Under the pieces are notes generated by a model, which saw only the letters and a program-made list of their open reading frames with translations, was not told the origin of the DNA and did not search any database. The translations under genes and the position numbers were made by a program. A stretch of DNA of 64,000 nt from Elusimicrobiota bacterium (GTDB taxonomy: Bacteria; Elusimicrobiota; Elusimicrobia; Elusimicrobiales; UBA9959): positions 124,001 to 188,000 of the forward strand of contig JAPLKI010000018.1 in NCBI GenBank assembly GCA_026388155.1, written 5' to 3'. This document shows positions 11,708-31,298 of this stretch, piece after piece. Within the stretch, counting starts at the first letter, position 1. Each line of letters starts with the position of its first letter.

Positions 11708-11710
11708 AAG

Positions 11711-13538: not shown

Positions 13539-14718
13539 AGATTGATATCTCCCCAGAAACCCTATTGGGGTCCATTATCTGCGGGTTCAGCGCCAGCAAG
13601 CGCGGCGCGGCGCTATATGGCAGCCCATAGCGCAGACAAATCAGGTGTATCGGCGTAGGGTTATTAATACGCACCACCTTCACATTCTCGGCCGACTTCT
13701 TCAGTTGCGCGGCCGCGCTATATAGAACAGCCGCCATGCGCTTAAGCGAATCATTGCCTCTATCGCCTTCAACCGCGGTCTGAATAGCGGTGTTGGTTAA
13801 AGCCAGGATAGTCTCTATCTCGTTAGAATTCAATGTGTCGTCCGTGCTTACGGAAACCCGGTTCCCGTTCACGTCAAACCCGGCGGCCTGGTCCATGATG
13901 TTGTTTGTTTGGCTCAACTGTTCGTCGGCGGAGAAAAAACCGGCGGCTTCAAGCCCCATCCTGGCGGCCGAGGCGGCGTCCACCTGCCCACCGAATTTAT
14001 CAAACTGCGCGTTCAGGTCTTTCAGGGCGGCCGCAAGCTGCGCCTGGAACGCCGCCGGCGCATCGCGCAGCGTCTCGTAGGCTATGGCGTAACGCTCAAC
14101 AGCCAGCGCGGCCGCCTCAACAAACCGGCCGGGTAAATCCGTGCCATAGTCAACCAGGGATGCCAGGGTATTGGCCGGGTTAGCCACGCTGGTCATAAAC
14201 GATCCGAATTTTTCTATAGCGGCTTCAGCCATCGCTTCGCGCTTTGCGCCCAGGGTAAGGATCTTCTGCAGGACGGACGCTTTCTGCTCTGCCACGGAGT
14301 TGTTAAATTCTTTTTCCGCTTCGGCTTTTGGGTCCTGCCAGGGCTTTATATTCGCCTGCACCTGGCCATCCTCAATCAGGTTTAAGTCAATCTCGGCCGC
14401 GCGTGATTGGTCATCATGGTGAACGACCAGTTTTTTAATGCGTACATTGGTCAGGCCATAAACCGGGTGGACAAAAGCAAGCAAGTCGAACTCTTTGGCA
14501 AGTTCTATTAATGATTGGTGGTTGCTGTAATTTTCGTCATAAAAATAACAGCGCAGTCCTATTGTCCGGGCTTTCAATCCGAGGTCTTCGGTTTGTGCGC
14601 CGTTGGTATAAGGAATCTCCGACTCGGAGATAGCTTTCTCAAAACCGTCTTCGGTGGTTTGGCATTGCAGGGGAATGCCGCCCAGGGTGGCTTTATAGAG
14701 GGGGTCGGTTTCATTCAT
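13531..14718 (-). CDS. Tail protein of the DNA-circularisation N family (Mu gpN)
   Basis: A 395-residue tail protein. Residues 1-115 form the DNA_circ_N domain (YKATLGGIPLQCQTTEDGFEKAISESEIPYTNG, AKEFDLLAFVHPVYGLTNVRI), followed by a long helical part and a LysM-like C-terminal segment (LICLRYGLPYSAAPRLLALNP). Despite the family name, in Mu this protein belongs to the tail baseplate. It sits between the tape measure and gpP as in Mu. Confidence 0.87.
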   Translation of the reverse strand: MNETDPLYKATLGGIPLQCQTTEDGFEKAISESEIPYTNGAQTEDLGLKARTIGLRCYFYDENYSNHQSLIELAKEFDLLAFVHPVYGLTNVRIKKLVVHHDDQSRAAEIDLNLIEDGQVQANIKPWQDPKAEAEKEFNNSVAEQKASVLQKILTLGAKREAMAEAAIEKFGSFMTSVANPANTLASLVDYGTDLPGRFVEAAALAVERYAIAYETLRDAPAAFQAQLAAALKDLNAQFDKFGGQVDAASAARMGLEAAGFFSADEQLSQTNNIMDQAAGFDVNGNRVSVSTDDTLNSNEIETILALTNTAIQTAVEGDRGNDSLKRMAAVLYSAAAQLKKSAENVKVVRINNPTPIHLICLRYGLPYSAAPRLLALNPQIMDPNRVSGEISIYA

Positions 14719-16388
14719 GGATGTTTCTCATCGTAATAATGGAAATTGCCTCTATTATTGGTATTTACTTTCAGGTCAACGCCCTGTCCGGTAGATGCCG
14801 TAACCCTTCCTTTTATGTCTGTGTTGAAATTGATATTTATCTCAGGAATATTTTTATCGGAGAGATGAATATTGTCGGCGCCAGGTATTCCGGCCGCGCC
14901 AAAATTGATTCGGCGCAACCGCTCGTTAAGCCATTCCTCACCTTTATAAACCCCATAAGTGGCCAATGGGATGGCTAGAAGATCTCCAAGAGTTATCGCC
15001 ATTCCGGCTCCAGCAGCTGCTGTTCCGCCAAGCACCATTTCCTCACCCATCATCCCGGTTCCCGCTAAAGCTTTCCCGGCAGTTACCGCGGCTCCGGCAC
15101 CAGCTAACCCGGTTGCTATGGATTTCAAACCCATAAGAGCCTTACCCATTCCCCACAATCCATATGCCGCACCGCCGGCGGCCACCAGGCCGCCAAGTCC
15201 CGCCACTCCTGCTGACACTCCGGGATGATTCTCCGCAAGCTTTCCAAGCCACACAAAAGTATCGCGGCCGCCGCGTGCGCCGGCCGCCAGCATTTCGGTT
15301 ATCGGCGCGAACACCGAGCCTTCGGCGTTCTTCATGGCCCGTATCATCTCCTCGTAAGAAGTGGTCAACCCATCGTTAACTTCTTTCAACTTCGCCTCAA
15401 ATTTCAGGCGGCGTTCATTCTGCGCGTTAATCTCGGCTAATGGTTTGGCGTCTATTAAAGCTTTAGCTACCGGAGCTCCGGCGCCAAATACCCTTTCAAG
15501 CAGGGGTAAAAGATCAGTTTTAAATCCGCCGAATTTTTCTTTCAGCTCCTTCTGTATAGCTTCAAATCCGATAAATTTTCCCTTCGCGTTGTATCCATTA
15601 AACCCAATGTCGCGCATCATAACAGCCTCGTGACTGGTAGCATCAGGCCGCATGGATTTTAAAAACTCACCCAAAGCGGGTGCGGCTCTTCGCGCTACCG
15701 TATGCATCATGCCTAATGTTGACACAACGTCTTTCAACGGTATTACCATATCCGATGCACGGGTGCCGACACTTAATAAACCAGAGGTTAGATAAGGTAG
15801 TTTATCCTCCAATCCATTCTGAGCTATAGCGTCAAATGCGGAATTAATTTCTTTTAAGTTGGCGCCAAACTGTTGATGAAAAATATCAACCAAGTCCCGC
15901 ACTTCTTCCATGCTCTGGCCGCTCAACTGGCTCATGCCGGATACTGATGCAGCTAGGCCATTTTGCCCCGCTATCTCGCCCGGCTTAAACCCACTTTCCA
16001 GCAGTAATTGTTCCGCGCGCATTATATCCGGCGCTCCGAATGGTGAATGCGCGCTAAGATAAAGCGCGGTGGACCGCATTTTAGTGAACTCCGCGCCCAT
16101 GGCAGCGGCTGTCTTACCGCTTTCCCAGAGCGAATTTTTCACAGATAATCCCGAGGCTTCCAACATAGCCGCGGCCTCGATGCCCGGCTTCATAAACTGC
16201 ATAGTGGAAAACGCCACTCCAAACCCCTTCAGCCCCTCGGCAAAATGGCTTTTCATGGCGTCGTAATCGCCGCGCAGTTTCTTGCCGGATTCTCCAAGCG
16301 AATCAATACGGCGCTCCATGTCGGCTAAATAGCCGCTGGCCGCGTCTATAGCGGTGAAAGTCAGCGCCACCTTCATCGTTTCGCCCAT
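14715..16388 (-). CDS. Tail tape-measure protein
   Basis: A 557-residue tape-measure protein that sets tail length and occupies the tube. It has an N-terminal helical region, a conserved PhageMin-type core (GLAASVSGMSQLSGQSMEEVRDLVDIFHQQFGANLKEI) and hydrophobic Gly/Ala-rich segments at about 395-490. It is shorter than the Mu protein, predicting a somewhat shorter tail. Met5 is an alternative start. The gene follows the frameshifting chaperone pair directly, the usual order. Confidence 0.87.
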   Translation of the reverse strand: MGETMKVALTFTAIDAASGYLADMERRIDSLGESGKKLRGDYDAMKSHFAEGLKGFGVAFSTMQFMKPGIEAAAMLEASGLSVKNSLWESGKTAAAMGAEFTKMRSTALYLSAHSPFGAPDIMRAEQLLLESGFKPGEIAGQNGLAASVSGMSQLSGQSMEEVRDLVDIFHQQFGANLKEINSAFDAIAQNGLEDKLPYLTSGLLSVGTRASDMVIPLKDVVSTLGMMHTVARRAAPALGEFLKSMRPDATSHEAVMMRDIGFNGYNAKGKFIGFEAIQKELKEKFGGFKTDLLPLLERVFGAGAPVAKALIDAKPLAEINAQNERRLKFEAKLKEVNDGLTTSYEEMIRAMKNAEGSVFAPITEMLAAGARGGRDTFVWLGKLAENHPGVSAGVAGLGGLVAAGGAAYGLWGMGKALMGLKSIATGLAGAGAAVTAGKALAGTGMMGEEMVLGGTAAAGAGMAITLGDLLAIPLATYGVYKGEEWLNERLRRINFGAAGIPGADNIHLSDKNIPEININFNTDIKGRVTASTGQGVDLKVNTNNRGNFHYYDEKHP

Positions 16389-16392
16389 GGTT

Positions 16393-16590
16393 TTATGCCT
16401 TTTTTTTCTTCCGCACTATGGTTTTAGGTTCCGGATTGTTTAACTCTTGCCAGGCGTCCAGGTAAAGGTACGCCTCATCCTCCCGAAGGCCGAGGGCCTC
16501 GGTATAGCTGAACCTCAGCTTCATCAAGGCCAGGATCAATTTACGGCGTACCTGCGCTTTCCGGCTATGGCTTCGGCTGAAGCTGCCCCC
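16393..16590 (-). CDS. Frameshift extension of the tail assembly chaperone (gp42-like)
   Basis: After the gp41-like frame, a second open frame without its own convincing start reads GSFSRSHSRKAQVRRKLILA through LREDEAYLYLDAWQEL to KKKKA and stops at 16393. It aligns with the GGGGGC run at 16590-16585 in the -2 frame. In Mu, gp41 and gp42 are joined by a -2 frameshift on a GGGGGC-type sequence to make a longer chaperone. Here the fusion would have 91 plus 64 residues, 155 in all. A highly basic C-terminus and the position directly before the tape measure fit this role. Confidence 0.75.
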   Translation of the reverse strand, partial: GGSFSRSHSRKAQVRRKLILALMKLRFSYTEALGLREDEAYLYLDAWQELNNPEPKTIVRKKKKA

Positions 16591-16858
16591 TGTCGGTCTT
16601 CTGGATAGCCGCCATATCGGCGGCGTCCATCTTCATTATTAAGTCCGGGGTGATAGACTCTTTGGGGATGTCGCCGAGTTTATTCAGCCGGCGGGCAAGA
16701 ATGCAGACCCCGGCGAAATAGCTGTTTTTCTCCGCGCGCGCACCGTGGTCAGGATCTTCATAGATCAGCACGGCATCCTCCACCAGCTGCGGCCGCAACT
16801 CGAACTCCTGGTGCCGCTTGCCGGCGAACTCTAGCCCTATGGGCAGTTTACCGGTCAT
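16565..16858 (-). CDS. Tail assembly chaperone, gp41/E-like
   Basis: A 97-residue short form of the tail assembly chaperone, located between tail tube and tape measure as in all contractile-tailed Mu-like phages. LPIGLEFAGKRHQEFELRPQLVEDAV matches the tail assembly protein E/gp41 pattern (substrate of the form target-range plus binding segment). It ends six codons after the GGGGG run, where the -2 shift would extend it. The start overlaps the tube gene stop by ATGA. Confidence 0.82.
   Translation of the reverse strand: MTGKLPIGLEFAGKRHQEFELRPQLVEDAVLIYEDPDHGARAEKNSYFAGVCILARRLNKLGDIPKESITPDLIMKMDAADMAAIQKTDRGQLQPKP
16585..16590 (-). other. Predicted -2 ribosomal frameshift site
   Basis: On the minus strand the codons read AGG GGG C. 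A GGG-decoding tRNA can slip back two bases and still pair with GGG, after which GGC is read in the frame of the extension. This is the same logic and nearly the same sequence as the Mu gp41/gp42 frameshift. Confidence 0.7.
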
Positions 16859-17214
16859 TCCGGCCTCCGGCCTGTGGCCGCGAAGTCAATGGTCCTGTTT
16901 ATTTCATTCTCGCCGTCGGCTTTAGCTTCGCCTATTTCAAGCGTGGTGATGCCGGTATAAATAACGCGGGCGCCACTTTCGTAGGTGATAGTCAGCGTGC
17001 CGTTTTTAACGGAGTCAAAGTCAAACTGCGTTTTGCTGTCCGGAACGACGTATTCCACCGTCGCCCCCAGCTCGGGTGTGACATTCGCTGTTCCGATGCC
17101 GCCCATCAGCTTCACCACTTTCCGGATGGTCCGTTTCTTCTCGGTTACGGATTTAAAATCGTCTATCTTCTTGCCGTTGATTTCCAAAACTATCGCACTC
17201 GCGTATTCTTTCAT
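16855..17214 (-). CDS. Tail tube protein, Mu gpM family
   Basis: A 119-residue tail tube protein, nearly the same length as Mu gpM (118). SAIVLEINGKKIDDFKSVTEKKRTIRKVVKLMGGIGTANVTP and the beta-rich remainder fit the family. It is preceded by GGAGG near 17221 and follows the sheath gene. Confidence 0.87.
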   Translation of the reverse strand: MKEYASAIVLEINGKKIDDFKSVTEKKRTIRKVVKLMGGIGTANVTPELGATVEYVVPDSKTQFDFDSVKNGTLTITYESGARVIYTGITTLEIGEAKADGENEINRTIDFAATGRRPE

Positions 17215-17275
17215 TTGTTCCTCCCATTATTATGTCCGGAGCGGCCGGCCGCACACCGGCCGCCCCGGCGCCGTA

Positions 17276-18694
17276 TTAAAGTATCAGGTCTATGCGGGCG
17301 GCAAACACGTGCAGGCCGGGCACCACAGCGGCCGGGATAACGCAGTTGAGGCGTCCGGCAATATTGGCGTCAGGCTCCACTATCAGCGCATCGGCGTTGG
17401 CGTCCACGTTCTGCACTATTTCCAACTCTTCCGCGTCCTTCAGCATCGAATACAGTTCCGTGCGCACCGATTTAGCCACGCGGGCATTCAACTTCGACTG
17501 CGGGAACCGCAGCCCTATCCTGGTCGCAGCGGCTTCGCGGATATAATCCAGCGAGTCTACCGTGGTGGTATCCAGCAGCGCGCTGCTGGCCACCCCGGCG
17601 CTGTTTGTGGTATAGGTGGTAATGGAGCGCACTATCGTCACCTCTTCGCTCGCATTCACTTCCAGGGGCGTCACACCGGCCGCCAGGCAGCTTTCCTGCT
17701 CCGCCCTGGTAAGCCGGTCGGCAGTCGCCGGCGCGGCTATGCCGGTAAGCGGTAAGCCGTTCAAGGGCAGCGCCGGATCCGAAACTGATATCTCCACCGC
17801 ACCCATGGCCGCCGCCTGTTCCCAGGAGAGGCTTATTCCGCCTTTCAAAAGCGCGCATTGCATCCGGCCTGAAGTGTTGTAATTGAGGGCCAGCGTCAAA
17901 GCATCCGCCACCGCGCCTATGTAGGCATATACGCCGATTCCGGGGTGCTGTTCCAGCGGTCCGGAGACCAGCTCCATATGCGTCTTCAGCTTACCCAGCG
18001 CCGTTGAGGAATTATAGGCGCATACTATTCTGTGATAGCGCGTGGCATGCACCGCGGTCAGGCAGTTGGCGATGTCCGGATCCACCAGGCCGCCGCTCAT
18101 GGCCTGCACCGTAACAGTGGCTCCGGGCGCGGTGCTTTCTGCGGATAACCCGATGGTGTTGCTCAGAAGGCCGGTATTTCGTGCCGTCAGTACAAGATTA
18201 TGTTGGATATCCATGGTGACTATCACTGGCAGATCCACATATTTATCCAATGCAGCTTTTAACGCGGTCATTATTACAGTGGCGGTATCTCCGGAGGCTA
18301 TGGGGACTTCGGTGGTCACATTGCCTATCTTAAACGTCAGCAGACCGGGACCGGTGGCGGTACCGACGCATGGACTTCCTGAGGTGGCGGCGACAGCCTG
18401 CGAACCATCGGCAGGCGCTATCACCGTTATATTGGCGTAAGGATTAGCCTTAAACGCGGCTTTTACCATCAGATGCGCCACTGACCCTGCGCCGAAGTAG
18501 GTTATTGCCTCGGTCTCTGAATACACGCGCACCGGCACTTCCACCGCCTTTGAACCGGCAGAAGTCTTCTGCCCTATCAGCAGCAACTTGCGGTCGCCGG
18601 AAGGCAGCCCCGCGCCGGCTAGCCGCGTGTTGAATTCTATGTATCTGCCTGGTTTGCGAATGTTACTGGGTATTCCGTCAAATGCTATGGTCAT
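17276..18694 (-). CDS. Tail sheath protein, Mu gpL family
   Basis: A 472-residue contractile sheath protein (Mu gpL is about 495). The N-terminus IAFDGIPSNIRKPGRYIEFN is diagnostic of this family, followed by LLLIGQ and the typical MVKAAFKANPYANITVIAP. The C-terminal region contains the conserved YIREAAATRIGLRFPQSKLN. An ATG with good ribosome binding site follows gp37 by 5 bp. Confidence 0.92.
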   Translation of the reverse strand: MTIAFDGIPSNIRKPGRYIEFNTRLAGAGLPSGDRKLLLIGQKTSAGSKAVEVPVRVYSETEAITYFGAGSVAHLMVKAAFKANPYANITVIAPADGSQAVAATSGSPCVGTATGPGLLTFKIGNVTTEVPIASGDTATVIMTALKAALDKYVDLPVIVTMDIQHNLVLTARNTGLLSNTIGLSAESTAPGATVTVQAMSGGLVDPDIANCLTAVHATRYHRIVCAYNSSTALGKLKTHMELVSGPLEQHPGIGVYAYIGAVADALTLALNYNTSGRMQCALLKGGISLSWEQAAAMGAVEISVSDPALPLNGLPLTGIAAPATADRLTRAEQESCLAAGVTPLEVNASEEVTIVRSITTYTTNSAGVASSALLDTTTVDSLDYIREAAATRIGLRFPQSKLNARVAKSVRTELYSMLKDAEELEIVQNVDANADALIVEPDANIAGRLNCVIPAAVVPGLHVFAARIDLIL

Positions 18695-18699
18695 TTTTA

Positions 18700-19221
18700 C
18701 TATCCTCCTGTTTGAAGTGTTACTACGTCCTGTGCGGCAGCGGTTGTGCTCCCGTTCAGCAGGTAATTCAGCCCCACCGATAACAACGCCTGTGTTCCCT
18801 CTTCGTCCATTTTGGAAACCACATACCAGGTTTTAAAATCCAATTGGTAAACCGCCATGCCGCCGGCGCGTTCCGCCTCGTCGGTCACATCGGTAAATCC
18901 GGTATATTTGAGTCCCTTTATTTCCAGCCCGAGCTTTTGATCCAGCAATATCTGCGCTATCGCTTCCACCACCGGGAAAGCGCCATGCCGGCGATCCTTA
19001 TCGGATTTGATGTTCTTGAACGCCAGCCAGATAGACAGATTAATATGCTGTTTCGTATTCTCCGACTGTGTAATAGGTTCCGCCGTGCCCTTTAAAATCG
19101 CCAGGGTATAGGCCGGTGTGTTTATCAGTACCACTTCGCTCTTGGCCGTATCAAGTTGTTTAAGCGTAGGCGCTTTCTCGGCCAGCCTGGTTATTACGGC
19201 GTTCTCTATCTCGGCAAGCAT
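18700..19221 (-). CDS. Neck/terminator protein, Mu gp37 family (DUF1834)
   Basis: A 173-residue protein matching the Mu gp37 family, thought to join head to tail. MLAEIENAVITRLAEKAP at the N-terminus and HGAFPVVEAIAQILLDQKLGLEIKGLKYTGFTDV in the middle are typical. It sits just upstream of the sheath gene as in Mu; the small gp38 seen in Mu is absent here. Confidence 0.87.
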   Translation of the reverse strand: MLAEIENAVITRLAEKAPTLKQLDTAKSEVVLINTPAYTLAILKGTAEPITQSENTKQHINLSIWLAFKNIKSDKDRRHGAFPVVEAIAQILLDQKLGLEIKGLKYTGFTDVTDEAERAGGMAVYQLDFKTWYVVSKMDEEGTQALLSVGLNYLLNGSTTAAAQDVVTLQTGG

Positions 19222-19225
19222 ATAT

Positions 19226-19690
19226 TCAGGCTTCCTTTATTGTCAGCTGGAAATCTTCTCCGTTCATATCGGCCATAAGAGCAGCCAGTGTATTTTTACT
19301 ATCGGTAACGCCAAGCTGCTTTGCACCGGCGGGCTTTCCGAAACTTGCGGGGAGCGCTATATCTGCAATGCTGCTCCCTGGGGCTATGCAACCTAACAAC
19401 TGGCTGACTTTTCCTTTAAGCCTATCCCCCGCCCAATTAGCCGAATGTATTTCCACATTCTCCCGGCGGCATGTACCAAGAACGTGATATAGAAACGCCT
19501 GGTGTGCATTAGACCACAGGTTTTTACAGATATATATGCCTGGGAAAATGCAAGAATAACCTACAGCGTTCATTTCCCAGGGGGGTTCTATGGTTACACA
19601 CTTGAAACCGGACCAGCTCTCCCATCCGCCGAAAGTTCCATCCGGACCGGATATTTTAAGGATGCGGGTTAGTATTGCCCCTTTATACAT
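19226..19690 (-). CDS. DUF5675-like protein, possible cell-wall or lysis-associated
   Basis: A 154-residue protein with the pattern of DUF5675 phage proteins: CVTIEPPWEMNAVGYSCIFPGIYIC, then VLGTCRRENVEIHSANWAGD and LLGCIAPG. In that family the IH-x-GN and GCI elements surround a probable active site, but its biochemical role is not established. It interrupts the virion order between gp36 and gp37, where other Mu-like phages sometimes carry lysis or accessory genes. Confidence 0.65.
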   Translation of the reverse strand: MYKGAILTRILKISGPDGTFGGWESWSGFKCVTIEPPWEMNAVGYSCIFPGIYICKNLWSNAHQAFLYHVLGTCRRENVEIHSANWAGDRLKGKVSQLLGCIAPGSSIADIALPASFGKPAGAKQLGVTDSKNTLAALMADMNGEDFQLTIKEA

Positions 19691-19692
19691 TC

Positions 19693-20127
19693 CTAAAATT
19701 CCTCCAGCTTCCTCTTGCTGAATATCCTGTCCGAAGGACGCTTGTTGGTCTTCATCAGCGAAGCCGGCGGCAGCGCCGCCCGGTCGCTGGTCTCCAGCTG
19801 TATAATGCCCACCTGAATGTCTTTAAGCTGGCTGATAGCCTGCTTATACATCAGCTCGCGGGCCCCGATATCAAACTGCTGATTACGCCGCTTGAACAAT
19901 TTATAGGCCGTTAAATCGAGCGCGAGATTTTTGATTATGCCTGGTACGGATACCAGGGGCACCGTATAGCGCCCCCGCAGGTATCCGTTAATGGTGTCCT
20001 GCGCCGCGGAGATAGCTTTGGCGATTATGTCCTGATTAGCGACGCCGGTATTGGCGTCATCAGTGAGCTGGATGAGCTCATCATTTGACAATCGCTCGGT
20101 TAAATCTTCCGCGGCACAGTAATCCAT
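19693..20127 (-). CDS. Head completion protein, Mu gp36 family (DUF1320)
   Basis: A 144-residue member of the DUF1320/gp36 family, an all-helical head-tail connector. The N-terminus YCAAEDLTERLSNDELIQLTDD and DTINGYLRGRYTVPL are diagnostic. It directly follows the major head protein gene, as in Mu. Confidence 0.9.
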   Translation of the reverse strand: MDYCAAEDLTERLSNDELIQLTDDANTGVANQDIIAKAISAAQDTINGYLRGRYTVPLVSVPGIIKNLALDLTAYKLFKRRNQQFDIGARELMYKQAISQLKDIQVGIIQLETSDRAALPPASLMKTNKRPSDRIFSKRKLEEF

Positions 20128-20138
20128 CTTTCAGATCC

Positions 20139-21023
20139 TCAGTCCAGCCAGGGTGAAACCAGCACTTCGGCGGAACCCTTCCAGGGGTTGCTCTCCGCGT
20201 TGACAAGATTCTCGCCATAGCAGATCTTGCGGGCGGCCGCTTCATTGGACGGCCCCACCACCAGCAGGTTGCCTTTCAGCCCCAGCGGCACGCCGGCGTC
20301 GTTCTTAACGCCGCCTATGGCCGCCCGTGCGGCGCCATAGTTGGTAACGTCAAGCGCCTTCTTGGAACCGAACGCCATCTGCCACAGGCCAAACCCGACA
20401 TTATCGCGCGAATCCACACCGTACAGGAACTTCTTGGTTTTGAAGACATGCTCGGCTTCCGGATTAGTCAGCGCAACAAACTGCGCCGCCTGCCGCTTCT
20501 GGAATATCAGCGGTTTCACAGCGCGGCTGGTGTCCAGCAGGAACCAGGGATTACCCGGATTAGTTTCCGGCACAGCCATGTTGGATACGGTGGTCTTGCC
20601 CACTTTATGCGCGCCGAAGAACGGCAGTCCGTCATAGCACAGAGCGCTGAACCCGAGCGGCAGCAGGCCGAATACCAATTCGTCCGGATGCGCGGCCGCG
20701 GCGCGGCCCATCTCAGAGAAGACCGGCTTGAAGATGCCTATCTTATCGTCGTTGATGTCGTTCCGGTCCACCTCAACCGTTGACTCGAAGTCTTTATTGA
20801 CTATCGAGTATTTCCCGGCTTTCAGGTTCTTAAACGCGCGCTCGCCTATCCACTCGCGCATTGACGGGAACGCTCCCAGCCAGGCGTAGTTCTCTTCGGT
20901 AACGGTGGAAGGCACCTCCATGGCCACCTGCTGGAACTGCGGGGTGTAGGCGGTGAACGCCTCCTGGAACAGCGTGTTGAACGCCGCGAATATCGCGGAC
21001 AATGTGTCTTTATTGATTATCAT
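20139..21023 (-). CDS. Major head protein, Mu gpT family
   Basis: A 294-residue major capsid protein, essentially the length of Mu gpT (296). FNTLFQEAFTAYTPQFQQVAMEVPSTVTEENYAWLGAFPSMREWIGER and KSIVNKDFESTVEVDRNDINDD-like text are signature stretches of the HK97-fold Mu gpT family. GGAGG precedes the ATG. Confidence 0.93.
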   Translation of the reverse strand: MIINKDTLSAIFAAFNTLFQEAFTAYTPQFQQVAMEVPSTVTEENYAWLGAFPSMREWIGERAFKNLKAGKYSIVNKDFESTVEVDRNDINDDKIGIFKPVFSEMGRAAAAHPDELVFGLLPLGFSALCYDGLPFFGAHKVGKTTVSNMAVPETNPGNPWFLLDTSRAVKPLIFQKRQAAQFVALTNPEAEHVFKTKKFLYGVDSRDNVGFGLWQMAFGSKKALDVTNYGAARAAIGGVKNDAGVPLGLKGNLLVVGPSNEAAARKICYGENLVNAESNPWKGSAEVLVSPWLD

Positions 21024-21053
21024 TACTATATCCCTCCTTGTTGGGATGTTGGT

Positions 21054-21767
21054 TTACACCGAAGCCATCAGGCCGGCGGTCTTAAGCGCGGCTATGACTG
21101 CGTTGAGCTGGGTCTTGTTCTCATCGGCCAGCGTAGCGATGCGCTGCACATCCATCTGGACGTAGCTTATGCCCTGGGTGCCGGCATTGTCCGAAGCAAC
21201 GGCGCCAACATAAGCCGCTTCCGTGAACTCGCCGGGATCTCCCTGGTCGCCCTTGTCACCCTTGTCGCCCTTGGCGCCCGCTGAACCGGGGTCGCCAGCG
21301 TCGCCCTTGTCACCCTTGGCTCCCGCTGAACCGGGATCTCCCTGGTCGCCTTTATCGCCGCGTATCGCCATGCCCATCTTCACCCACGCCTCATCGGCGG
21401 AAACCACTTCCATTATGACGCCCGCAAACACGTGGTTGGTCCCGCCGTCCAGGTTCACGGTCTGGTCATCAGCCGCGTAGCACTCCTTGCCGGCGTCGCC
21501 CTCGGTCAATCCGGCTGAGTCGTAGAGAAAGACGCCCTGTTCTATCTCCACCTGCAAATCCCCGTTCTCGCCGCCTGAGTTATCCACTGTCTTGGCTGCG
21601 CGGCCTTCAACCACCAGCCCGGCGGTATCGGCGGCAGGCACCGCATAGCCGGAAGCGTTCCTGGCTACCATGGAACCCGCAAATATCCTCACTTCAGCCG
21701 CCGCGCCGCGTACAATTATCTTGCCCGCGCGTTTAGCGGTATCCCTTTCTTGATCTAATTCGCTCAT
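21054..21767 (-). CDS. Capsid decoration protein with collagen-like insert
   Basis: A 237-residue protein. Residues 1-135 look like a DUF2190-type capsid decoration or cement domain (GKIIVRGAAAEVRIFAGSMVARNASGYAVP... AGVIMEVVSADE). Residues about 136-180 are collagen-like triplets (GDKGDQGDPGSAG and similar, about 14 G-x-y units). The C-terminal 55 residues are helical and could act as a trimerisation or projecting end. It sits between protease/scaffold and major capsid genes, as decoration proteins do. The fusion suggests thin triple-helical fibres protruding from the capsid. Confidence 0.75.
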   Translation of the reverse strand: MSELDQERDTAKRAGKIIVRGAAAEVRIFAGSMVARNASGYAVPAADTAGLVVEGRAAKTVDNSGGENGDLQVEIEQGVFLYDSAGLTEGDAGKECYAADDQTVNLDGGTNHVFAGVIMEVVSADEAWVKMGMAIRGDKGDQGDPGSAGAKGDKGDAGDPGSAGAKGDKGDKGDQGDPGEFTEAAYVGAVASDNAGTQGISYVQMDVQRIATLADENKTQLNAVIAALKTAGLMASV

Positions 21768-21830
21768 ATTTCTTCCTCCTTAATATTCCGAAAATCTCCC
21801 CGGCTTCAGCCTCGGAGACCGTTTCAGGCT

Positions 21831-22355
21831 TTAGGCCTTTTTGTTGTGCTTCTTGAAGTCCTCAACGCTTATGCCGAGCTGCTTGCAGGCCACTACTTCA
21901 GCCGCGGTCAGCTCCTGGCTTGTCGGCTCAGGGGCGGGTTCTTTATGCTCGTTCCCCATAGGCACCACCACCGGCGCTTTAGCCACGAATACCTTAAACC
22001 CCTCGGGGTCTTCGGCGGCGTATTTCTTCGCCCAGTCGTTCTGCGCGGGTGAAATCTTCCCGGCCTTCAAAGCCACCTGCACCAACTCATCCGCATCGCG
22101 CGCGGCCAGTTTATCGCTAAGGGTTTTTACCCGGGCGGCCAGTTCGGATGTCTTGTCGGATCCGCTTTTCATGGCCACTATGGTCCCCACGGTTTCCGAC
22201 TCGCTCGCGCCGTCCGTCAGTCCCAGAGCGGTCAGCACGCCTTTGCAGGCCACCGGAATTTTCCCGGCGGTTTCCTTCAGGCTGGTTATTGCGGCTATCG
22301 CTTCATCCACAGTCGCCGTGGCGGCAAGCCCCAGCGCTTTAAGTATGTTATCCAT
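21831..22355 (-). CDS. Nested in-frame scaffold protein, Mu gpZ-like
   Basis: Inside the protease gene an ATG at 22355 begins MDNILKALGLAATATVDEA, 11 bp after a strong AAGGAGG (22367-22373). The product would be the 174-residue scaffold alone. Mu and lambda-like phages make scaffold from such an internal start in the protease gene. The strong internal ribosome binding site is direct evidence; use of the site is inference. Confidence 0.65.
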   Translation of the reverse strand: MDNILKALGLAATATVDEAIAAITSLKETAGKIPVACKGVLTALGLTDGASESETVGTIVAMKSGSDKTSELAARVKTLSDKLAARDADELVQVALKAGKISPAQNDWAKKYAAEDPEGFKVFVAKAPVVVPMGNEHKEPAPEPTSQELTAAEVVACKQLGISVEDFKKHNKKA

Positions 22356-22868
22356 CTTTATGGTTTCCTCCTTCTTGGTTGCGGCGTTGCCGCCGTTTAC
22401 TTCCTGCTTGGCTACCACAGGCTCCATTCCGTCAATGGCGGGGGTGTTGGTGAGCGCCGCGTGCAAAAACTTCACAACGCGGTTCTTTTTATCGCGCAAA
22501 AACACCGGTGATAAATAGCGGTATTCCCGGTTATTAAGCATCTCGGCGGCGCGTTTGCACCAGGAGACCTTTCCCCAAATGCCGTCCGCACCCTTATTTT
22601 CCAACTCAGTCACCCAACCGGCAGCCGGCGCCTCATTGCCGCTCAGTGTCTGGTGCTCATAGTCAATAACCGGGTCGGTCTGGCTGGCCTTGTAAAAATC
22701 CATCACCATGTCGGCGCCGGCCTTGTCCAGGATAACCATGCCTTTGTCGGTTTTATGCTCCCCGAATGGGAGAAGCTGGATAATTTCCGGCGCTTGGCCC
22801 TGTCCTCCCATAGACATTGCCACCACCATCGTCCGTACCGCCTGCCCGTCATCAGCCTGCCTTGCCAT
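21831..22868 (-). CDS. Prohead protease with C-terminal scaffold, Mu gpI family
   Basis: A 345-residue protein of the Mu-like protease I family. The protease domain (about 20-155) shows IQLLPFGEH, DPVIDYEHQTLSGNEAPAAGWV and REYRYLSPVF, with the conserved His and Ser residues expected for capsid maturation proteases. The C-terminal 170 residues are helical and Ala/Lys-rich, a scaffold. It is the first gene of the leftward virion operon, starting 50 bp from the divergent promoter. Confidence 0.9.
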   Translation of the reverse strand: MARQADDGQAVRTMVVAMSMGGQGQAPEIIQLLPFGEHKTDKGMVILDKAGADMVMDFYKASQTDPVIDYEHQTLSGNEAPAAGWVTELENKGADGIWGKVSWCKRAAEMLNNREYRYLSPVFLRDKKNRVVKFLHAALTNTPAIDGMEPVVAKQEVNGGNAATKKEETIKMDNILKALGLAATATVDEAIAAITSLKETAGKIPVACKGVLTALGLTDGASESETVGTIVAMKSGSDKTSELAARVKTLSDKLAARDADELVQVALKAGKISPAQNDWAKKYAAEDPEGFKVFVAKAPVVVPMGNEHKEPAPEPTSQELTAAEVVACKQLGISVEDFKKHNKKA

Positions 22869-22912
22869 CGTTTCTCCGTCAATTTCCGCGTTTTTTTGTT
22901 GCAGCCAAGGAT

Positions 22913-22984
22913 TTTATAGCAGAAGTGTGAATCCCATCTCTACTAAACGGTTTAGTAGAGGAAAGACTCTTTACCGAGTATGAT
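22913..22984. promoter_or_regulatory. Divergent late promoters sharing one palindromic activator site
   Basis: A perfect palindrome with arms CTCTACTAAA (22938-22947) and TTTAGTAGAG (22951-22960) lies in the 150-bp gap between the two virion operons. Rightward, TATGAT at 22979-22984 is a -10 box. Leftward, TATAAA (minus strand, 22918 to 22913) is a -10 box. Neither has a recognisable -35, and the palindrome centre (22949) falls about 42 and 43 bp upstream of the two predicted starts. Mor-type activators bind at this distance, and a Mor homologue is encoded at 38939. Confidence 0.6.
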
Positions 22985-23018
22985 ATTTCCGGTATGACAA
23001 AATTTTCCTGGAGGCATA

Positions 23019-23381
23019 ATGAGCGATTTTAATTTTTGGCTGGAAGGCATAAAGAACTGGGGACTCCCCGTAGCGGTCCTGGCCGCCTGGTTTTACCATA
23101 ACCGCGGCCAGAACAAGCTTTGGGCGCAGATGCTGGAAAACAACAAAACCTATACCGCCGAGATGATTAAAACCAACAGCACACAGGCCGCCCAGACGCT
23201 TGAGAATACCAATAAGATTTGGAGTAATGTGCTGGATATGGTGCGCCAGCAATGGTGCCAGCAGAACGAAGTTTTGAAAGGCCTGCTGGAAAATGACCAG
23301 TACCATGGCGCGCAACTGGCGCGCATAGAGCAGAAAATAGACACCAACCAGTCTTGCCCGATGATCAGGAGCGACAAATGA
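23019..23381 (+). CDS. Membrane-anchored coiled-coil phage protein
   Basis: A 120-residue first gene of the rightward virion operon, with ribosome binding site GGAGG before the ATG. Residues about 12-28 (NWGLPVAVLAAWFYH) form a single membrane segment, followed by a long Gln/Asn-rich helix with coiled-coil spacing and a C-terminal CP motif. The topology resembles inner-membrane spanins (Rz-like) or holins, which Mu-like phages place before the terminase genes. No family assignment is certain. Confidence 0.65.
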   Translation: MSDFNFWLEGIKNWGLPVAVLAAWFYHNRGQNKLWAQMLENNKTYTAEMIKTNSTQAAQTLENTNKIWSNVLDMVRQQWCQQNEVLKGLLENDQYHGAQLARIEQKIDTNQSCPMIRSDK

Positions 23382-23635
23382 ACCCCGAAATAATCCAGAT
23401 GCGCAACGATCTTGCCCTGCTGCGCCGCAAAGCTTTAAGGCAACGCGAAGAGGCCGCCGGCATTACACTGCTTATCCGGCTTGAACTGCCAGTCTATGGT
23501 GAAGACCCCATCTTACGCACCGATACCGCCAAAGTGCTCCAATTCACCAAGCGCCTGCACGAGTTGAAGACCGACCTGGTTAAAAGCCTAGCCGGGATTA
23601 AGGCTCTTGAGGAGGCGCTGGGCGAAAATGAGTAA
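23378..23635 (+). CDS. Small helical phage protein (Mu gp26-like position)
   Basis: An 85-residue, fully helical and charged protein. I chose the ATG at 23378 because it overlaps the upstream stop (ATGA) and has AGGAG 6 bp before it; a longer upstream start would be less natural. It lies between the membrane protein and the small terminase, where Mu has small proteins of unknown role. No domain is recognised. Confidence 0.7.
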   Translation: MNPEIIQMRNDLALLRRKALRQREEAAGITLLIRLELPVYGEDPILRTDTAKVLQFTKRLHELKTDLVKSLAGIKALEEALGENE

Positions 23636-24116
23636 AAAACACCTTCTTTTTGCCGAGGCTGAGCGTTTATTTACCATAGAGCAAACAAGCGTTGATGGTA
23701 TTGCCGTGCGTCTCAAGATATGCGAGAAAACCGTACGTCTCTGGAAAGAAGAAGGCAGCTGGGACGCCAAACGCAAAGCTTACCTGTCCAGCCGCCAGCA
23801 ATTCCATGAGGAAATGTACGAGTTTTGCCGCGCCCTCATGAAATCTGTCAGCGAGGATCTAAAAGCTAGCAATCCAATAGATCCAAAGCGCCTGGGAACC
23901 ATAGCCCGCATAATCCCCAATATCTACAAGGTTAAAGATTACGAGGATGCTGTAAAAAAACTCTCCGGCGCCGACTCCGGCAAAAGCAAAGACCTGGTCA
24001 AAGATATGGCCCGGATTATTAACGAGCAGCTCACGGGAGAGACCTCCGATGAACCAGCCGCGGCCGACCCCACTAAACCACAGGAAGCCCCGCAACCCGG
24101 CGGTACCGTCAAATGA
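23628..24116 (+). CDS. Terminase small subunit, DUF1804-like
   Basis: A 162-residue protein with an N-terminal helix-turn-helix: LFTIEQTSVDGIAVRLKICEKTVRLWKEEGSWDAKR resembles the DUF1804 and terminase small-subunit pattern (a DNA-binding domain that recognises DNA for packaging). The C-terminal 40 residues are acidic and Pro-rich. The ATG at 23628 has GGAGG 12 bp upstream and overlaps the previous stop. It overlaps the large subunit gene by ATGA. Confidence 0.82.
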   Translation: MSKKHLLFAEAERLFTIEQTSVDGIAVRLKICEKTVRLWKEEGSWDAKRKAYLSSRQQFHEEMYEFCRALMKSVSEDLKASNPIDPKRLGTIARIIPNIYKVKDYEDAVKKLSGADSGKSKDLVKDMARIINEQLTGETSDEPAAADPTKPQEAPQPGGTVK

Positions 24117-25540
24117 AACCAGCGGCGTATTTCCTCCCCTATCAAATAGCCTGGCTAAAGGATAAGTCCAGGATTAAGATTTGGGAAAAATCACGCCGCA
24201 TAGGCGCTACCTACGTCCAGAGTTATGAAGATGTGCGCGACTGCGTTGAAGGCGCTGTCCCCTGCGTCTGGTTCTCCTCCGCCGACGAATCCGCCGGCCG
24301 CGAATATATCCTCTATTGCGAAAAGTGGGCAAAAATTTTCAATGCCGGCGCGCAAATGCTCGGCGAGATTATCCTGGACGAAAAGAAAGGCATCAAAGGC
24401 CGGGTCCTGGAATTTAAAGACGGCCGCCGCATCACGGCTTTAACCTCCAACCCAAAGGCATTCCGCTCCAAAGGCGGCAAAGTTATCCTGGACGAATATG
24501 CCCACCATGACGATGCCGACGAAATGTGGAAAGCCGCCAAGCCCTGTATCACCTGGGGCTTCCCGCTCAGGATCCTTTCTACTCATAACGGCACCAGCAC
24601 CCGCTTCAACCGCTTCATCGAGAGCATCCGCAAAGGCCGGCTTAACTGGAGTCTGCATACAGTCTCCATCTTCAAAGCGGTGGAAGACGGCCTGGCCGAC
24701 AAAATCGTCGGCCATGTTCTAACCAAAGCGGAGCGCGACGCCTGGATAGAAGCCGAGCATCAGGACTGTGATGATGAAGACACCTGGCAGCAGGAATATT
24801 GCGTAGTTGCCACCGACAGCGCTTCCTCCTTTCTGCCATATAATCTTATCCGCCCCTGCGAATTCAAAGATTGCCTGGTCTCGGACAAGCGCGATCTGCT
24901 GACTCTGCCGGGAGATCTCTATGCGGGCTTCGACGTAGCACGCAAAAAACACCTGGCCGTTATCGCTATCCTGCAAAAATACGGCGGTATGCTCTGGCTG
25001 CGCTGGCTGAGCGTTATGCAGAACCAGAAGTTTAAGTTTATGAAGGAGGAGCTCTACTGGCTCCTGAAACTGCCGCAGTTGCGCCGGGGCTGCATAGACG
25101 CCACCGGGTTGGGGATGCAGCTCGGCGAAGAAGCACAGGACGATTTCGGCAAGTTCAAGGTTGAGCCTATCACGTTTAACGAAGGCGTAAAAGAAGAACT
25201 CGCCTATGGCCTGCATCCCTACTTTGAAGACGTCGCCATCCATATCCCGGACCAGTTTGAGCTGCGCGAGGATCTCCATTCGGTCAAAAAGATAGTCACC
25301 AAGGCAAATCATATCCGTTTTGACGCTGAGGCTAGTGAAAACGGCCATGGGGACCGTTTCTGGGCTATGTCTTTGGCCGCCCATGCCATCAGCAAGTGCG
25401 TAGGCCCCATACACTTAGCCTCAGGTTCAGGCAACCAGGACTCAAAGATTTTGCAAGGCTACGAAAAGCAGGAAAACGGCCTGTTTTTAATGCGCCCGGA
25501 CCATAAACGGCGAAAAAGGTCAATTTTGAGCGGTTTTTGA
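24113..25540 (+). CDS. Terminase large subunit, Mu gp28 family
   Basis: A 475-residue packaging motor protein. The ATPase domain has a divergent Walker A (EKSRRIGAT, residues 25-33) and Walker B ending at Asp127-Glu128 (KVILDEYAHHDD). The nuclease domain begins at YAGFDVARKKHLAVI (Asp274), with further acidic residues downstream (DATGLG, and DRF near GHGDRFWAM). The Mu family packages host DNA beyond the prophage ends by a headful mechanism. The basic tail (KRRKRSI) is unusual but short. Confidence 0.92.
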   Translation: MKPAAYFLPYQIAWLKDKSRIKIWEKSRRIGATYVQSYEDVRDCVEGAVPCVWFSSADESAGREYILYCEKWAKIFNAGAQMLGEIILDEKKGIKGRVLEFKDGRRITALTSNPKAFRSKGGKVILDEYAHHDDADEMWKAAKPCITWGFPLRILSTHNGTSTRFNRFIESIRKGRLNWSLHTVSIFKAVEDGLADKIVGHVLTKAERDAWIEAEHQDCDDEDTWQQEYCVVATDSASSFLPYNLIRPCEFKDCLVSDKRDLLTLPGDLYAGFDVARKKHLAVIAILQKYGGMLWLRWLSVMQNQKFKFMKEELYWLLKLPQLRRGCIDATGLGMQLGEEAQDDFGKFKVEPITFNEGVKEELAYGLHPYFEDVAIHIPDQFELREDLHSVKKIVTKANHIRFDAEASENGHGDRFWAMSLAAHAISKCVGPIHLASGSGNQDSKILQGYEKQENGLFLMRPDHKRRKRSILSGF

Positions 25541-25763
25541 AACATCCTAAAACGCTCACAAATGCCCCAGGAGCGTTTTAGCCGTCCCTCTACAGGCGCG
25601 GCAGTCTAAAAATGCGGATTGAACGCTATTTTATGCGAGCCAAATGAATATTAGGCATATGGCAATGCCCCGGTTTTAGAGGTTCCGAAACTCGGCAATA
25701 TTTTTATTTTTAATTAACTTTGACTGACCGGCTCCCAAAAACCCGGTAAAAACGGAGAAAACC
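25541..25763. other. 223-bp non-coding gap inside the head operon
   Basis: No open frame is supported here. An inverted repeat AAAACGCTC (25549-25557) / GAGCGTTTT (25571-25579) with a 13-nt loop follows the terminase stop. An AT-rich segment (about 25700-25725) precedes a GGAG at 25754 and the portal start. It could be an attenuator plus an internal promoter, or a scar of a lost insert. Confidence 0.5.
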
Positions 25764-27311
25764 ATGTCCCCAAAAAAGACCAACCACCGCGCCCCCAACC
25801 CGCGCCGGTTTCAGCGCATAGTCTGCAAATCCCTTCCGGCTTTCGTCCCCTCTTTCCGACCCGGCGAAATAGCCTCCCGCGAGCGCAGCCTCGATTTCTA
25901 TCTGTCGGCTGGTATGCCGCTCCCCAACCCCGACCCCGTGCTAAAACGCATGGGTAAAGACATCAGCGTCTATACCGACCTCCTCGCCGACGACCATGTC
26001 GGCGGCTGCGCCGACTCCCGCGCCGCCGGCGTCCTATCGCTCGACTGGGCCGTGGACAACGGCAAAGCGCAGAGCCGCTCCGCCGCGTTCGTCAAGGATA
26101 TGCTCGACGCTCTCGATATGCCGCGCCTGGTCGCCGAGATCTTAAAGGCGCCGCTCTTCGGCTACTCCGTGCTCGAAATAGTCTGGAACATCGGCGCGGA
26201 TAACCTGGTGCGCCCCGTCTCCGTGCAGAAAAAGCCCTGCGCCTGGTTCAGCTTCGATGGTTACGATAAACTCATGTTCCGCAGTAAAGAAAATCCCCTG
26301 GGTGAGATTTTGCCGCCTCGCAAATTCCTGCTCGCTTCGCATAAAGCCAGTTATGAAAACCCCTACGGCGAGCCTGTCTTAAGCCGCATCTTCTGGCCCG
26401 CCACCTTTAAAAAAGGCGGCCTGAAGTTTTGGACCATCTTCATAGAAAAATACGGCATGCCGCACGTGATAGGTAAAAACCCGCGCGGCACCGGTGATGC
26501 TGACACCAACGACCTGCTCTACAAGCTGGAGAATATGGTGCAGGACGCCGTTGCCGTAATACCCGATGATTCCTCCGTTGAGATAAAAGACTTCGCAGCC
26601 TCCGGCGGCTCCATAGACGCCTATGAGCGTTACCTGGTCTATTGCGAAAAGTCCATCTCAAAAGGCCTGCTCGGCCAAACCCTCACTACCGACGTGGGAG
26701 ATAAAGGCAGCTACGCCGCCGCCAAAACCCACATGGAGGTACGCGGCGATATTGTGACCAGCGATAAAAAGGTTGTGGAGCAGACCATCCAGCAGCTAAT
26801 CAACTGGACCTGCGAGTTAAACTTCCCCGGCGAACCCGTTCCCGTCTATTCCATGTTCGCCCCCGAAGACGTTGACATGGACCAGGCCACCCGCGACAAA
26901 GTCCTAACCGACTGCGGCGTGAAATTTACCCCGGTCTACTTCCAGCGCGAGTATAACCTGAAGCCGGAAGATTTCACCCTGATAGACCCGCCAGGATACT
27001 CCGGCGCCGCGCAACCATCCAACGCAACCCCCTTCGCCGGCAAAGCCCCAGCCCCGGCCGCGCAGCAGGCCGAAGTAGAGGATCCCATCACCGCCGCGGC
27101 CGATAAACTTGACCCGGCAGCTCTCCAGGCACAGATAGAAGGTGTTCTCGCCCCGGTCCTGGAAGCCATAAAAGCCGGCGACTACCAGGCAATGGAATCC
27201 GGCCTCATCGCCGCCTATCCCGAGATGGACACCAAAAAATTCCAGGAAACGCTTGCCCGCGCAATTTACGTCTCAGAGATTTGGGGCCGTCTCACCGCCA
27301 ACAAAGCTTAA
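25764..27311 (+). CDS. Portal protein, Mu gp29 family (DUF935)
   Basis: A 515-residue portal protein that forms the ring through which DNA enters the head. DPVLKRMGKDISVYTDLLADDHVGGCADSRAAGVLSLDW and LKAPLFGYSVLEIVW are hallmarks of DUF935. A GLLGQTLTTDVG motif and the helical, Ala-rich C-terminal crown follow. GGAG lies 7 bp before the ATG. Confidence 0.92.
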   Translation: MSPKKTNHRAPNPRRFQRIVCKSLPAFVPSFRPGEIASRERSLDFYLSAGMPLPNPDPVLKRMGKDISVYTDLLADDHVGGCADSRAAGVLSLDWAVDNGKAQSRSAAFVKDMLDALDMPRLVAEILKAPLFGYSVLEIVWNIGADNLVRPVSVQKKPCAWFSFDGYDKLMFRSKENPLGEILPPRKFLLASHKASYENPYGEPVLSRIFWPATFKKGGLKFWTIFIEKYGMPHVIGKNPRGTGDADTNDLLYKLENMVQDAVAVIPDDSSVEIKDFAASGGSIDAYERYLVYCEKSISKGLLGQTLTTDVGDKGSYAAAKTHMEVRGDIVTSDKKVVEQTIQQLINWTCELNFPGEPVPVYSMFAPEDVDMDQATRDKVLTDCGVKFTPVYFQREYNLKPEDFTLIDPPGYSGAAQPSNATPFAGKAPAPAAQQAEVEDPITAAADKLDPAALQAQIEGVLAPVLEAIKAGDYQAMESGLIAAYPEMDTKKFQETLARAIYVSEIWGRLTANKA

Positions 27312-27312
27312 T

Positions 27313-28623
27313 ATGCCCAAAGTCCCGGACCTGCACTACGCCATCGGCCTAGAGCCCAAAGAAGCGCTCCGCTATCTGGCCGGCCAGACGGACTATCACC
27401 CTGCCTTCAACTGGTATGACGTATGGCAGGACGCCCACGCCAAAGCCTTCACCGTCGCCAAAGCCATGCAGGTGGACCTGCTGAAAGATATTCACTCCGC
27501 CGTGCAGAATGGTATGAAGAATGGCCTCACCGTCTCGCAATTCCGTAAAACCATAGAACCCACTCTCCAGGCTAAAGGCTGGTGGGGCAAGAAGATAATG
27601 ACCAACCCAGACACCGGCAAGGAACAAGTGGTCCAGCTCGGCAGCCCGCGCCGCCTGGAATTAATCTACCGGGCCAATATGTCTGTAGCCGAGTCTGCCG
27701 CCCGTTACCAGGACTTTGTTGAATCCGCCCCTGAGCGTCCCTACTGGCAGTTCGTCTGCGTGCTGGATGCGCACACCCGCCCCTCGCACCGCGCCCTGAA
27801 CGGTAAAGTATTCCGCTGGGATGATCCGTTCTGGAATACCTTCTGGCCGCCCCTGGACTGGGGCTGCCGCTGCACCGTGCGCAAGCTCACCGCCGAGCAG
27901 GTGCGCAAGCTGGGCCTTAAAGTGGAATCCTCCGTGGGGAAAATTGCCTACAACCAGCCCGGCGCTGAACTGCAAAAGATAGGCGCGCAGCGTTCCACCT
28001 ATACCGACCCCGTCACCGGAGAAAAAGTCTCCACCGGCGCCGGATGGGATTATAACCCCGGCCAAGCCTGGTATCTGGATGCGCAGACCTGGCAGAAAGC
28101 GGAAGATCTTCCCGACCCCTTGCGTCGCACCTTCCTCGCGGATATGGCAAAGAATAATCTGGCGGCCGAGATGTGGCCAACCTGGGTGGATGGCATCCTG
28201 GCGCGCAATAGCACAAACGGTTTTGCCGCCACTATCGGCTGGATGAAACCTGTTGTCTTTGACAAACTAACAGCATTAAACCTGAAACCCGAAAGCCCGC
28301 TGATAATCGCCAACGATAAAGGAATACTTCACGCTCAGCGCCCCGCGAAACAAAAATCCGGCCAGGCGATATCTATTGAGGAATTAAAAAAATTGCCGGG
28401 TTATATTTCTGATTATGAAGCGGTCCTCTACGACAAAATAAATAAGAACATCCTTTACGTCGTAAAGTCGGCCGAGGTTAAAGCGACCAAGATCGTGATT
28501 GAGGTAAATTATAATCTGCGCGAAATGCAAACCCCGGCCAATTTATTTAAGACGGTATCCGATGTAAACGCCTATAACCTGGCTGAGGACCGCTATGTTT
28601 TGCTGGATGGTAAATTAAAATGA
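27313..28623 (+). CDS. Head morphogenesis protein (gpF/gp30) with C-terminal nuclease-like domain
   Basis: A 436-residue minor head protein of the SPP1 gp7/Mu gp30 family. The core motif CVLDAHTRPSHRALNGKVFRWDDPFWNTFWPPLDWGCRCTV (shown in pieces: CVLDAHTRPSHRALNGK and PPLDWGCRCTV) is present at about residues 155-200. After about residue 320 an extra domain follows (GYISDYEAVLYDKINKNILYV, TKIVIEVNYNLRE, SDVNAYNLAED). Similar gp30-linked domains belong to the phage-borne Barnase/EndoU/ColicinE5-RelE-like (PBECR) group. The start at 27313 follows the portal stop; upstream in-frame starts overlap the portal gene. Confidence 0.85.
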   Translation: MPKVPDLHYAIGLEPKEALRYLAGQTDYHPAFNWYDVWQDAHAKAFTVAKAMQVDLLKDIHSAVQNGMKNGLTVSQFRKTIEPTLQAKGWWGKKIMTNPDTGKEQVVQLGSPRRLELIYRANMSVAESAARYQDFVESAPERPYWQFVCVLDAHTRPSHRALNGKVFRWDDPFWNTFWPPLDWGCRCTVRKLTAEQVRKLGLKVESSVGKIAYNQPGAELQKIGAQRSTYTDPVTGEKVSTGAGWDYNPGQAWYLDAQTWQKAEDLPDPLRRTFLADMAKNNLAAEMWPTWVDGILARNSTNGFAATIGWMKPVVFDKLTALNLKPESPLIIANDKGILHAQRPAKQKSGQAISIEELKKLPGYISDYEAVLYDKINKNILYVVKSAEVKATKIVIEVNYNLREMQTPANLFKTVSDVNAYNLAEDRYVLLDGKLK

Positions 28624-28805
28624 GCGCGCTCCTTACGAAGCCACGCTCATTTAGTTTAGAAGACGGAGGGACGGCTCTTCCCCTCATACCATGGATCTCG
28701 GACAAGTCCGCTAACCACGCCGTAGGCAACGCCGATTTTCCTACTGTCGTCTCCTGGGTATATTATAGCCCCCGGCCGGCAGGATTTCAAGGCCTATTTT
28801 TATGA
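28620..28805 (+). CDS. Possible 61-residue protein between gp30 and gpG
   Basis: The frame begins in an ATGA overlap with the gp30 stop and ends in an ATGA overlap with the gpG start, an arrangement typical of real coupled genes. The product (MSALLTKPRSFSLEDGG...) has no recognisable domain, a low-complexity composition and no obvious ribosome binding site of its own. It may instead be spacer sequence that happens to be open. Confidence 0.45.
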   Translation: MSALLTKPRSFSLEDGGTALPLIPWISDKSANHAVGNADFPTVVSWVYYSPRPAGFQGLFL

Positions 28806-29284
28806 TCAAGATTTCCGTTGACCTCGGCCCTGTTCAAAAACGTCTGGCCGAAATCCATAAAAAGTTGAAGAACACCCGCCCGCTCATGCGCGAGATAGCT
28901 GATATCCTGTGGGATTCCACCATGGAGAACTTCCAGCAGGGTGGCCGCCCCAAATGGGTGCCGTCCGCCGCCGCGTTAAAAAGAAAAGGCCAGACGCTTA
29001 TAGCTAAAGGCCGGCTTATGCGTTCCGTCCATAAAGCCTATGGCAACAACTATGCTATGGCCGGCACTAATGAAGTTTACGCCGCCATCCACCAGTTCGG
29101 CGGCTTCATCCGGCGCCGCCAGGTTGCCGCCACTTCCGACTTCCGCAAATTCGACGGTCGTCCCACAAAATTAAACAGTTATGCCGTAGGCGAAATAGTA
29201 GCCCGGCCATATTTTAAACTTCAGCCCGACGAACTCAAAGACATCGAAAATACCGCAGCCAAATACCTCGGAGATAAAAAATGA
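28802..29284 (+). CDS. Virion morphogenesis protein, Mu gpG family
   Basis: A 160-residue member of the phage virion morphogenesis family (Mu gpG, P2 gpS-like), involved in tail completion or head-tail joining. IADILWDSTMENFQQGGRPKWVPSAAALKRKGQTLIAKGRLMRSV and YAAIHQFGG are the classic motifs. The ATG overlaps the upstream stop and the stop overlaps the next start. Confidence 0.9.
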   Translation: MIKISVDLGPVQKRLAEIHKKLKNTRPLMREIADILWDSTMENFQQGGRPKWVPSAAALKRKGQTLIAKGRLMRSVHKAYGNNYAMAGTNEVYAAIHQFGGFIRRRQVAATSDFRKFDGRPTKLNSYAVGEIVARPYFKLQPDELKDIENTAAKYLGDKK

Positions 29285-29550
29285 AACCCCTTTCCCGCAC
29301 CCCGCGCGCTCTTGCTCGCCGTCTTAAAACCCCCATCTGCAAAGCCTGCAGCCGCCCGAAGCTGGCCGAGACCAGCCATATCCCCGGCCAGCGCAAGACC
29401 TTCAGCTTCACCTGCTGGACCCCAGGCTGCCCTGAAGGCGAGATGAAGACCTGGGCAAAGCTGAAAGAGTCGGAAGTTATACGAAAGGAGGTTACACATG
29501 AAACTGTAGACGGACCATCTCTTATTTCAAGCCGCAGTCTTTTCGATTAA
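29281..29550 (+). CDS. Small zinc-ribbon phage protein
   Basis: An 89-residue basic protein with two Cys pairs (CKACSRPK and CWTPGC) that should form one zinc ribbon. It is the last gene of the rightward virion operon, coupled by ATGA to gpG, and followed by a terminator. The position matches small zinc proteins of other transposable phages, but no specific function is recognised. Confidence 0.6.
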   Translation: MKPLSRTPRALARRLKTPICKACSRPKLAETSHIPGQRKTFSFTCWTPGCPEGEMKTWAKLKESEVIRKEVTHETVDGPSLISSRSLFD

Positions 29551-31264: not shown

Positions 31265-31298
31265 TTGACAGATTGTAGTGTAGTTCGTATACTACAAT
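31265..31298 (+). promoter_or_regulatory. Early promoter with overlapping dyad operator
   Basis: TTGACA (31265-31270) and TATACT (31288-31293) are spaced by 17 bp, an excellent sigma70 promoter for the early block. An inverted repeat ATTGTAGT (31272-31279) / ACTACAAT (31291-31298) overlaps it, so a repressor or Ner-like dimer bound there would block polymerase. A weaker minus-strand promoter for the repressor may overlap the same region. Confidence 0.75.

Follow-up and report, generated by a model that had tools for sequence, protein, structure and literature searches.

The divergent gap and its two promoters

The window, by which we mean the whole 64,000-nucleotide stretch analysed here, contains a Mu-like prophage of an uncultured Elusimicrobia bacterium, with a MuA-type transposase, a B protein, Gam and a Mu I-type protease (profile matches in the prophage: PF09299, phrog_310, phrog_296, phrog_491 and PF10123). 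Genes for a major head protein, a contractile tail sheath, a tape measure, a baseplate, a tail fibre, a portal and a large terminase are also present. The virion genes form two divergent runs that lead away from a gap flanked on the minus strand by the protease gene (21831-22868) and on the plus strand by a small gene (23019-23381). The early genes lie on one strand in the order ner-like, A, B, gam, Mor; they extend from the Ner-like protein (31317) to the Mor-type protein (38939-39283), which ends the run after the transposase and gam. The features used below are:

7799-22868, minus strand: leftward virion run, with the protease (21831-22868), major head protein, sheath, tape measure, baseplate and tail fibre
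22913-22918, minus strand: leftward -10, TATAAA, first base 31 bp from the dyad centre, predicted start at about 22906
22919-22921, minus strand: TGC adjoining the leftward -10 on its upstream side, an extended -10 (TGn in all four close relatives)
22938-22960, no strand: perfect palindrome (11-1-11), proposed Mor-type activator site common to both promoters
22979-22984, plus strand: rightward -10, TATGAT, first base 30 bp from the dyad centre, predicted start at about 22991
23019-29550, plus strand: rightward virion run, first part, with the small protein (23019-23381) and a DNA-binding protein (23607-24116) at the terminase small-subunit position
within 23019-29550, plus strand: rest of the rightward virion run, with the large terminase, portal, minor head protein and neck protein
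31265-31293, plus strand: early promoter, TTGACA-17-TATACT, with an overlapping dyad TTGTAGT...ACTACAA; a control for the promoter scan and for the repressor alternative
38939-39283, plus strand: putative Mor-family activator of 114 residues, the sole Mor/C-type profile match in the window (phrog_836; PF08765 in relatives)

Read directly from the sequence, the palindrome CTCTACTAAAC-G-GTTTAGTAGAG occupies the 23 letters from 22938 to 22960. An earlier note on this DNA had centred a palindrome at 22949 with 10-bp arms around 3 bp; the centre is correct, and the arms are slightly longer, at 11 bp around a single base. None of 3000 first-order Markov sequences of the length of the gap reached an 11-bp arm, the maximum being 10 bp in two of them. 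Elsewhere in the window, perfect inverted repeats with arms of at least this length number only three, and all lie outside the prophage. No second site within three mismatches of the palindrome pattern was found in the window or across the 3.36-Mb assembly. Among 341 Elusimicrobiota genomes, only 2 contain the motif ACTRAACSGTTYAGT, so the motif does not mark a host regulon.

The two -10 hexamers and the position of the dyad at about -42/-43 of the predicted starts were just as the earlier note had placed them. Its claim that both promoters lack a -35 was borne out by a promoter scan, which detected no sigma70-type -35/-10 pair in the gap and scored the prophage early promoter at 11/12. Both promoters thus have a -10 without a -35 and a dyad near -43.5, at 30 and 31 bp from the -10 where about 30.5 bp is expected of a Mor-dependent promoter. 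The rightward -10 is also Pm-like in having no upstream TG (GAG stands there). By contrast, TG precedes TATAAA in the leftward promoter (TGCTATAAA), which we therefore describe as like, rather than class as, a Mor-dependent promoter. Extended -10 promoters can operate without a -35 or an activator (PMC4390567), and the leftward promoter may not be strictly activator-dependent.

Conservation of the dyad in close and distant relatives

Three close relatives, G040, G041 and the viral contig L201, encode proteases 59-70% identical to that of the window and carry a perfect 11-1-11 palindrome in the same gap (CTCTACTGAACGGTTCAGTAGAG in G040 and L201; CGTTATTAAACGGTTTAATAACG in G041). A search of related prophages, which the earlier note had proposed as a check, thus returned the palindrome in the same place and equally perfect in all three. 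Four of the 11 arm positions differ among the four phages, always with a matching change in the other arm; every arm position stays paired in all of them, and pairing stops abruptly after position 11. These paired changes point to selection on two-fold symmetry. The spacing from the dyad to both -10s is likewise invariant across the four phages.

The fourth member, L201, came from a blind scan of IMG/VR for the motif plus its spacing, which returned five contigs; IMG/VR was also scanned with the pattern CTACTAAA-N3-TTTAGTAG. The other four contigs (L202-L205) showed no homologue of the prophage and were set aside as probable chance matches, L202 reading as an unrelated phage. Also rejected was a motif on contig C106 of G040, which lies inside a homologue of the host gene at 60988-62580. 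Scans of public collections with single protease sequences found no relatives, whereas alignments did. We noted, separately, that in L202 (around 3754) and L205 (around 4762) a portal-type gene, of a phage that appears unrelated, has next to it a palindrome ACTGAACGGTTTAGT and then TTTAGT units repeated about every 11-12 bp.

A large-terminase alignment search returned 52 viral loci, many of which have the layout of protease (minus strand), gap and terminase operon (plus strand), and a subset keeps a related dyad with the consensus ACTGAAC-S-GTTCAGT. An earlier -10 profile had rested on hand-picked loci and was repeated as an unselected test, in which a fixed stretch upstream of the terminase was taken from 31 dereplicated loci and dyads were scored blind to the -10s. 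Ten dyads scored at least 11.5, against 1.55 expected by shuffling. At these dyads, -10-like hexamers (score at least 7) were found at +30 in five of the ten and at -30/-31 in seven, over a background of about 1%. Examples are L176, L158, L161 and L162, and also L152 and L171, which have TAAGAT 30 bp from the dyad on each side; the half-site pooled over loci reads G-T-(T/G)-(C/T)-A-G-T-A. L169 (4190-4310) and L172 (8825-8945) instead have three GAACCCGTTC-type dyads in tandem in the divergent gap, spaced by about 34 bp, apparently a multi-site form of the same switch; in L169, TATAAT lies 30.5 bp from the rightmost of them. A clear dyad is absent from about two thirds of the wider loci. No matching dyad was found before the protease in the colinear relatives L133-L142, where portal, minor head protein and protease lie in one run, nor was such a site found in the Mor-lysozyme gap of Sinorhizobium phage StopSmel. 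As a further observation, the promoter regions of L152 (around 8972) and L171 (around 7243) are nearly mirror-symmetric, with matching flanks (ATCTTACC / GGTAAGAT).

The putative Mor-family protein and its precedents in phage Mu

The 38939-39283 protein is placed in the Mor family, tentatively, by modest profile scores and by weak fold similarity. The window protein itself matches phrog_836 (E 6e-4, a modest score) and has no PF08765 match; within its family, 9 of 12 members match PF08765 (best 3e-5) and 11 of 12 match phrog_836. When its predicted fold was compared by Foldseek, Mu Mor (1rr7, 9l0y) took the first to third ranks at weak E values of 0.3-0.6, and the corresponding VIA Z of 5.1-5.2 is level with that of unrelated helix-turn-helix proteins. 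A PDB profile search with two Mor sequences returned no match. By profile search, the window and the G041 contig each have one Mor-family gene, and no second Mor/C-like gene was found in either; viral contigs with a Mor-family match have one such gene apiece. Several contigs that bear the palindrome are too fragmentary to show Mor. L183 combines Mor with the divergent layout and has no recognisable dyad.

At the Mu middle promoter Pm, the place of the -35 is taken by a dyad, centred at -43.5, to which a Mor dimer binds (PMC4390567), and activation requires the alpha and sigma subunits (PMC4287176). In the Mu record, the -10 of Pm (TATCCT) begins at -13, 30.5 bp from the dyad centre, close to the 30 and 31 bp seen here. 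Pm also resembles the present promoters in having a -10 without a -35 and a Mor-family protein (putative in the present case) supplied by the early genes, and its dyad AGTAAAGCCGGTTAAT resembles the inner part of the sites here (TAAA-GCCGG-TTAA against TAAAC-G-GTTTA). It differs, however, in being a 16-bp element with 5-bp arms and a 6-bp spacer rather than 11-bp arms and a 1-bp spacer, in lacking an extended -10 (PMC4287176), such as the leftward promoter has here, and in being one-way: its product, C, in turn activates separate late promoters. Those promoters (Plys, PI, PP and Pmom) use a Mor-related activator, as proposed here, with a dyad in the -35 region (PMC4287176, PMC4461284), and PI, by its name, precedes gene I (protease), as the leftward promoter does here. 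Unlike the present pair, they are four separate promoters, each with its own site, under a second activator. The Mu promoters momP1 and momP2 are also divergent and near one C site, but there C shifts polymerase from momP2 to momP1, favouring one at the other's cost (PMC4287176).

Among other transposable phages, KS10 also keeps its portal/terminase and protease/capsid genes apart on opposite strands (PMC2628397), although its two groups are about 11 kb apart rather than back to back over one short gap.

In E. coli, one CRP site can serve two divergent promoters. That arrangement shares with the present one a single symmetric activator site and two outward promoters, but CRP is a global host regulator and not a phage late switch.

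A proposed shared activator site and its alternatives

In the best-supported reading, which we regard as probable, one Mor-type site controls both virion operons. The palindrome would be a two-fold symmetric activator site that takes the -35 position of two promoters set back to back. Its activator would most likely be the Mor-family protein that the phage itself encodes near the end of the early run. This protein would bind once and offer an equivalent face to RNA polymerase on each side, and the one site would control the leftward head-tail operon and the rightward packaging-portal operon. Within this reading we infer that Mor binds the palindrome, that binding activates, and that both promoters depend on the palindrome. 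The earlier note had proposed such a single Mor site for both directions, and the proposal gains from the paired conservation of the arms, the fixed, Pm-like spacing to both -10s, the absence of a -35, the lone Mor-family gene and the scarcity of the motif in host genomes.

The idea that the site switches on both directions at once is, by contrast, doubtful. The predicted starts (22906 and 22991) are only 85 bp apart, and the polymerase footprint in closed complexes covers about -60 to -5 (PMC4287176). The footprints would therefore overlap, and two polymerases would probably compete for the same DNA. Simultaneous occupancy of both promoters is thus doubtful, and on one DNA molecule they probably fire by turns rather than together.

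A site for another lytic-cycle regulator, such as a small early protein other than Mor, would still be a shared activator site, and several early-region proteins have no family match. We nevertheless consider a non-Mor regulator unlikely, since the dyad spacing equals that of Mu Pm, the inner bases resemble the Mu dyad, and Mor is the one recognisable activator among the early genes. Less probable again is an operator through which the prophage repressor or Ner would silence both virion promoters in the lysogen. Repressors commonly bind at a dyad between divergent promoters, where one would shut both together, but the early control region has a different dyad of its own over the -35/-10, TTGTAGT...ACTACAA (GCTAGTG...CACTAGC in G041), and the late core TAAACGGTTTA is common to the window and G041 while these early dyads differ. 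Moreover, an operator would not have to keep a set distance from a pair of -10s, neither of which has a -35. The difference between the early dyads suggests that the two phages have different immunity specificities.

We also weighed a DNA structure element without a part in promoter activation, which might be a cruciform, a site for packaging or partition, or the equivalent of the central gyrase site of Mu. The Mu gyrase site adjoins gene I, and the palindrome here, too, is next to the protease gene and about halfway along the prophage. Such an element would not be expected to keep a constant distance to a -10 on either side or to conserve its central bases, and the palindrome, being upstream of both predicted starts, would not form a hairpin in either transcript; we judge this explanation very improbable.

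Returning to the shared Mor-type site, we advance a broader form only tentatively, as a possibility that falls somewhat short of an even chance: that a clade of transposable phages has condensed late control into one two-way switch. Both virion operons would be fired from one palindrome by a single Mor-type complex with polymerase engaged on each of its faces, and this would stand in for the relay from Mor to C and the separate late promoters seen in Mu. The earlier note had called this simpler than the Mu cascade, which is fair on gene content. However, a single Mor-type gene also occurs in colinear relatives (L133-L137), and the Mor-only state is hence not peculiar to the divergent layout. 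The geometry of Mor-type promoters was already known, whereas a phage clade that employs it for a shared, divergent late switch appears to be a new variation on that geometry; no description of a shared Mor site was found in the open-access literature searched.

The shared-site reading makes a base-by-base prediction of one site controlling all virion genes of phages whose known members here come only from uncultured bacteria and metagenomes. In this reading the one-way Mor-type promoter becomes symmetric. Whether two polymerases can be served simultaneously by one activator complex could be tested cleanly in this system, and the natural variants with paired changes are ready-made half-site swaps. 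The Mu Mor sequence accounts for five chains over two PDB entries, and these chain counts suggest that the polymerase complex 9l0y contains four copies of Mor. If so, the longer palindrome here might hold more than one dimer.

Lastly, we noted several features of the DNA around the prophage. Directly past its right end is an open reading frame of 4153 residues (40232-52693), followed by one of 1698 residues (54838-59934), before which two long perfect inverted repeats with 12- and 13-bp arms adjoin each other (54873-54940). The homologues of the window genes at 3590-4600 and 60988-62580 are neighbours in G040 (L207), and the intervening stretch, prophage included, is thus absent from that place.
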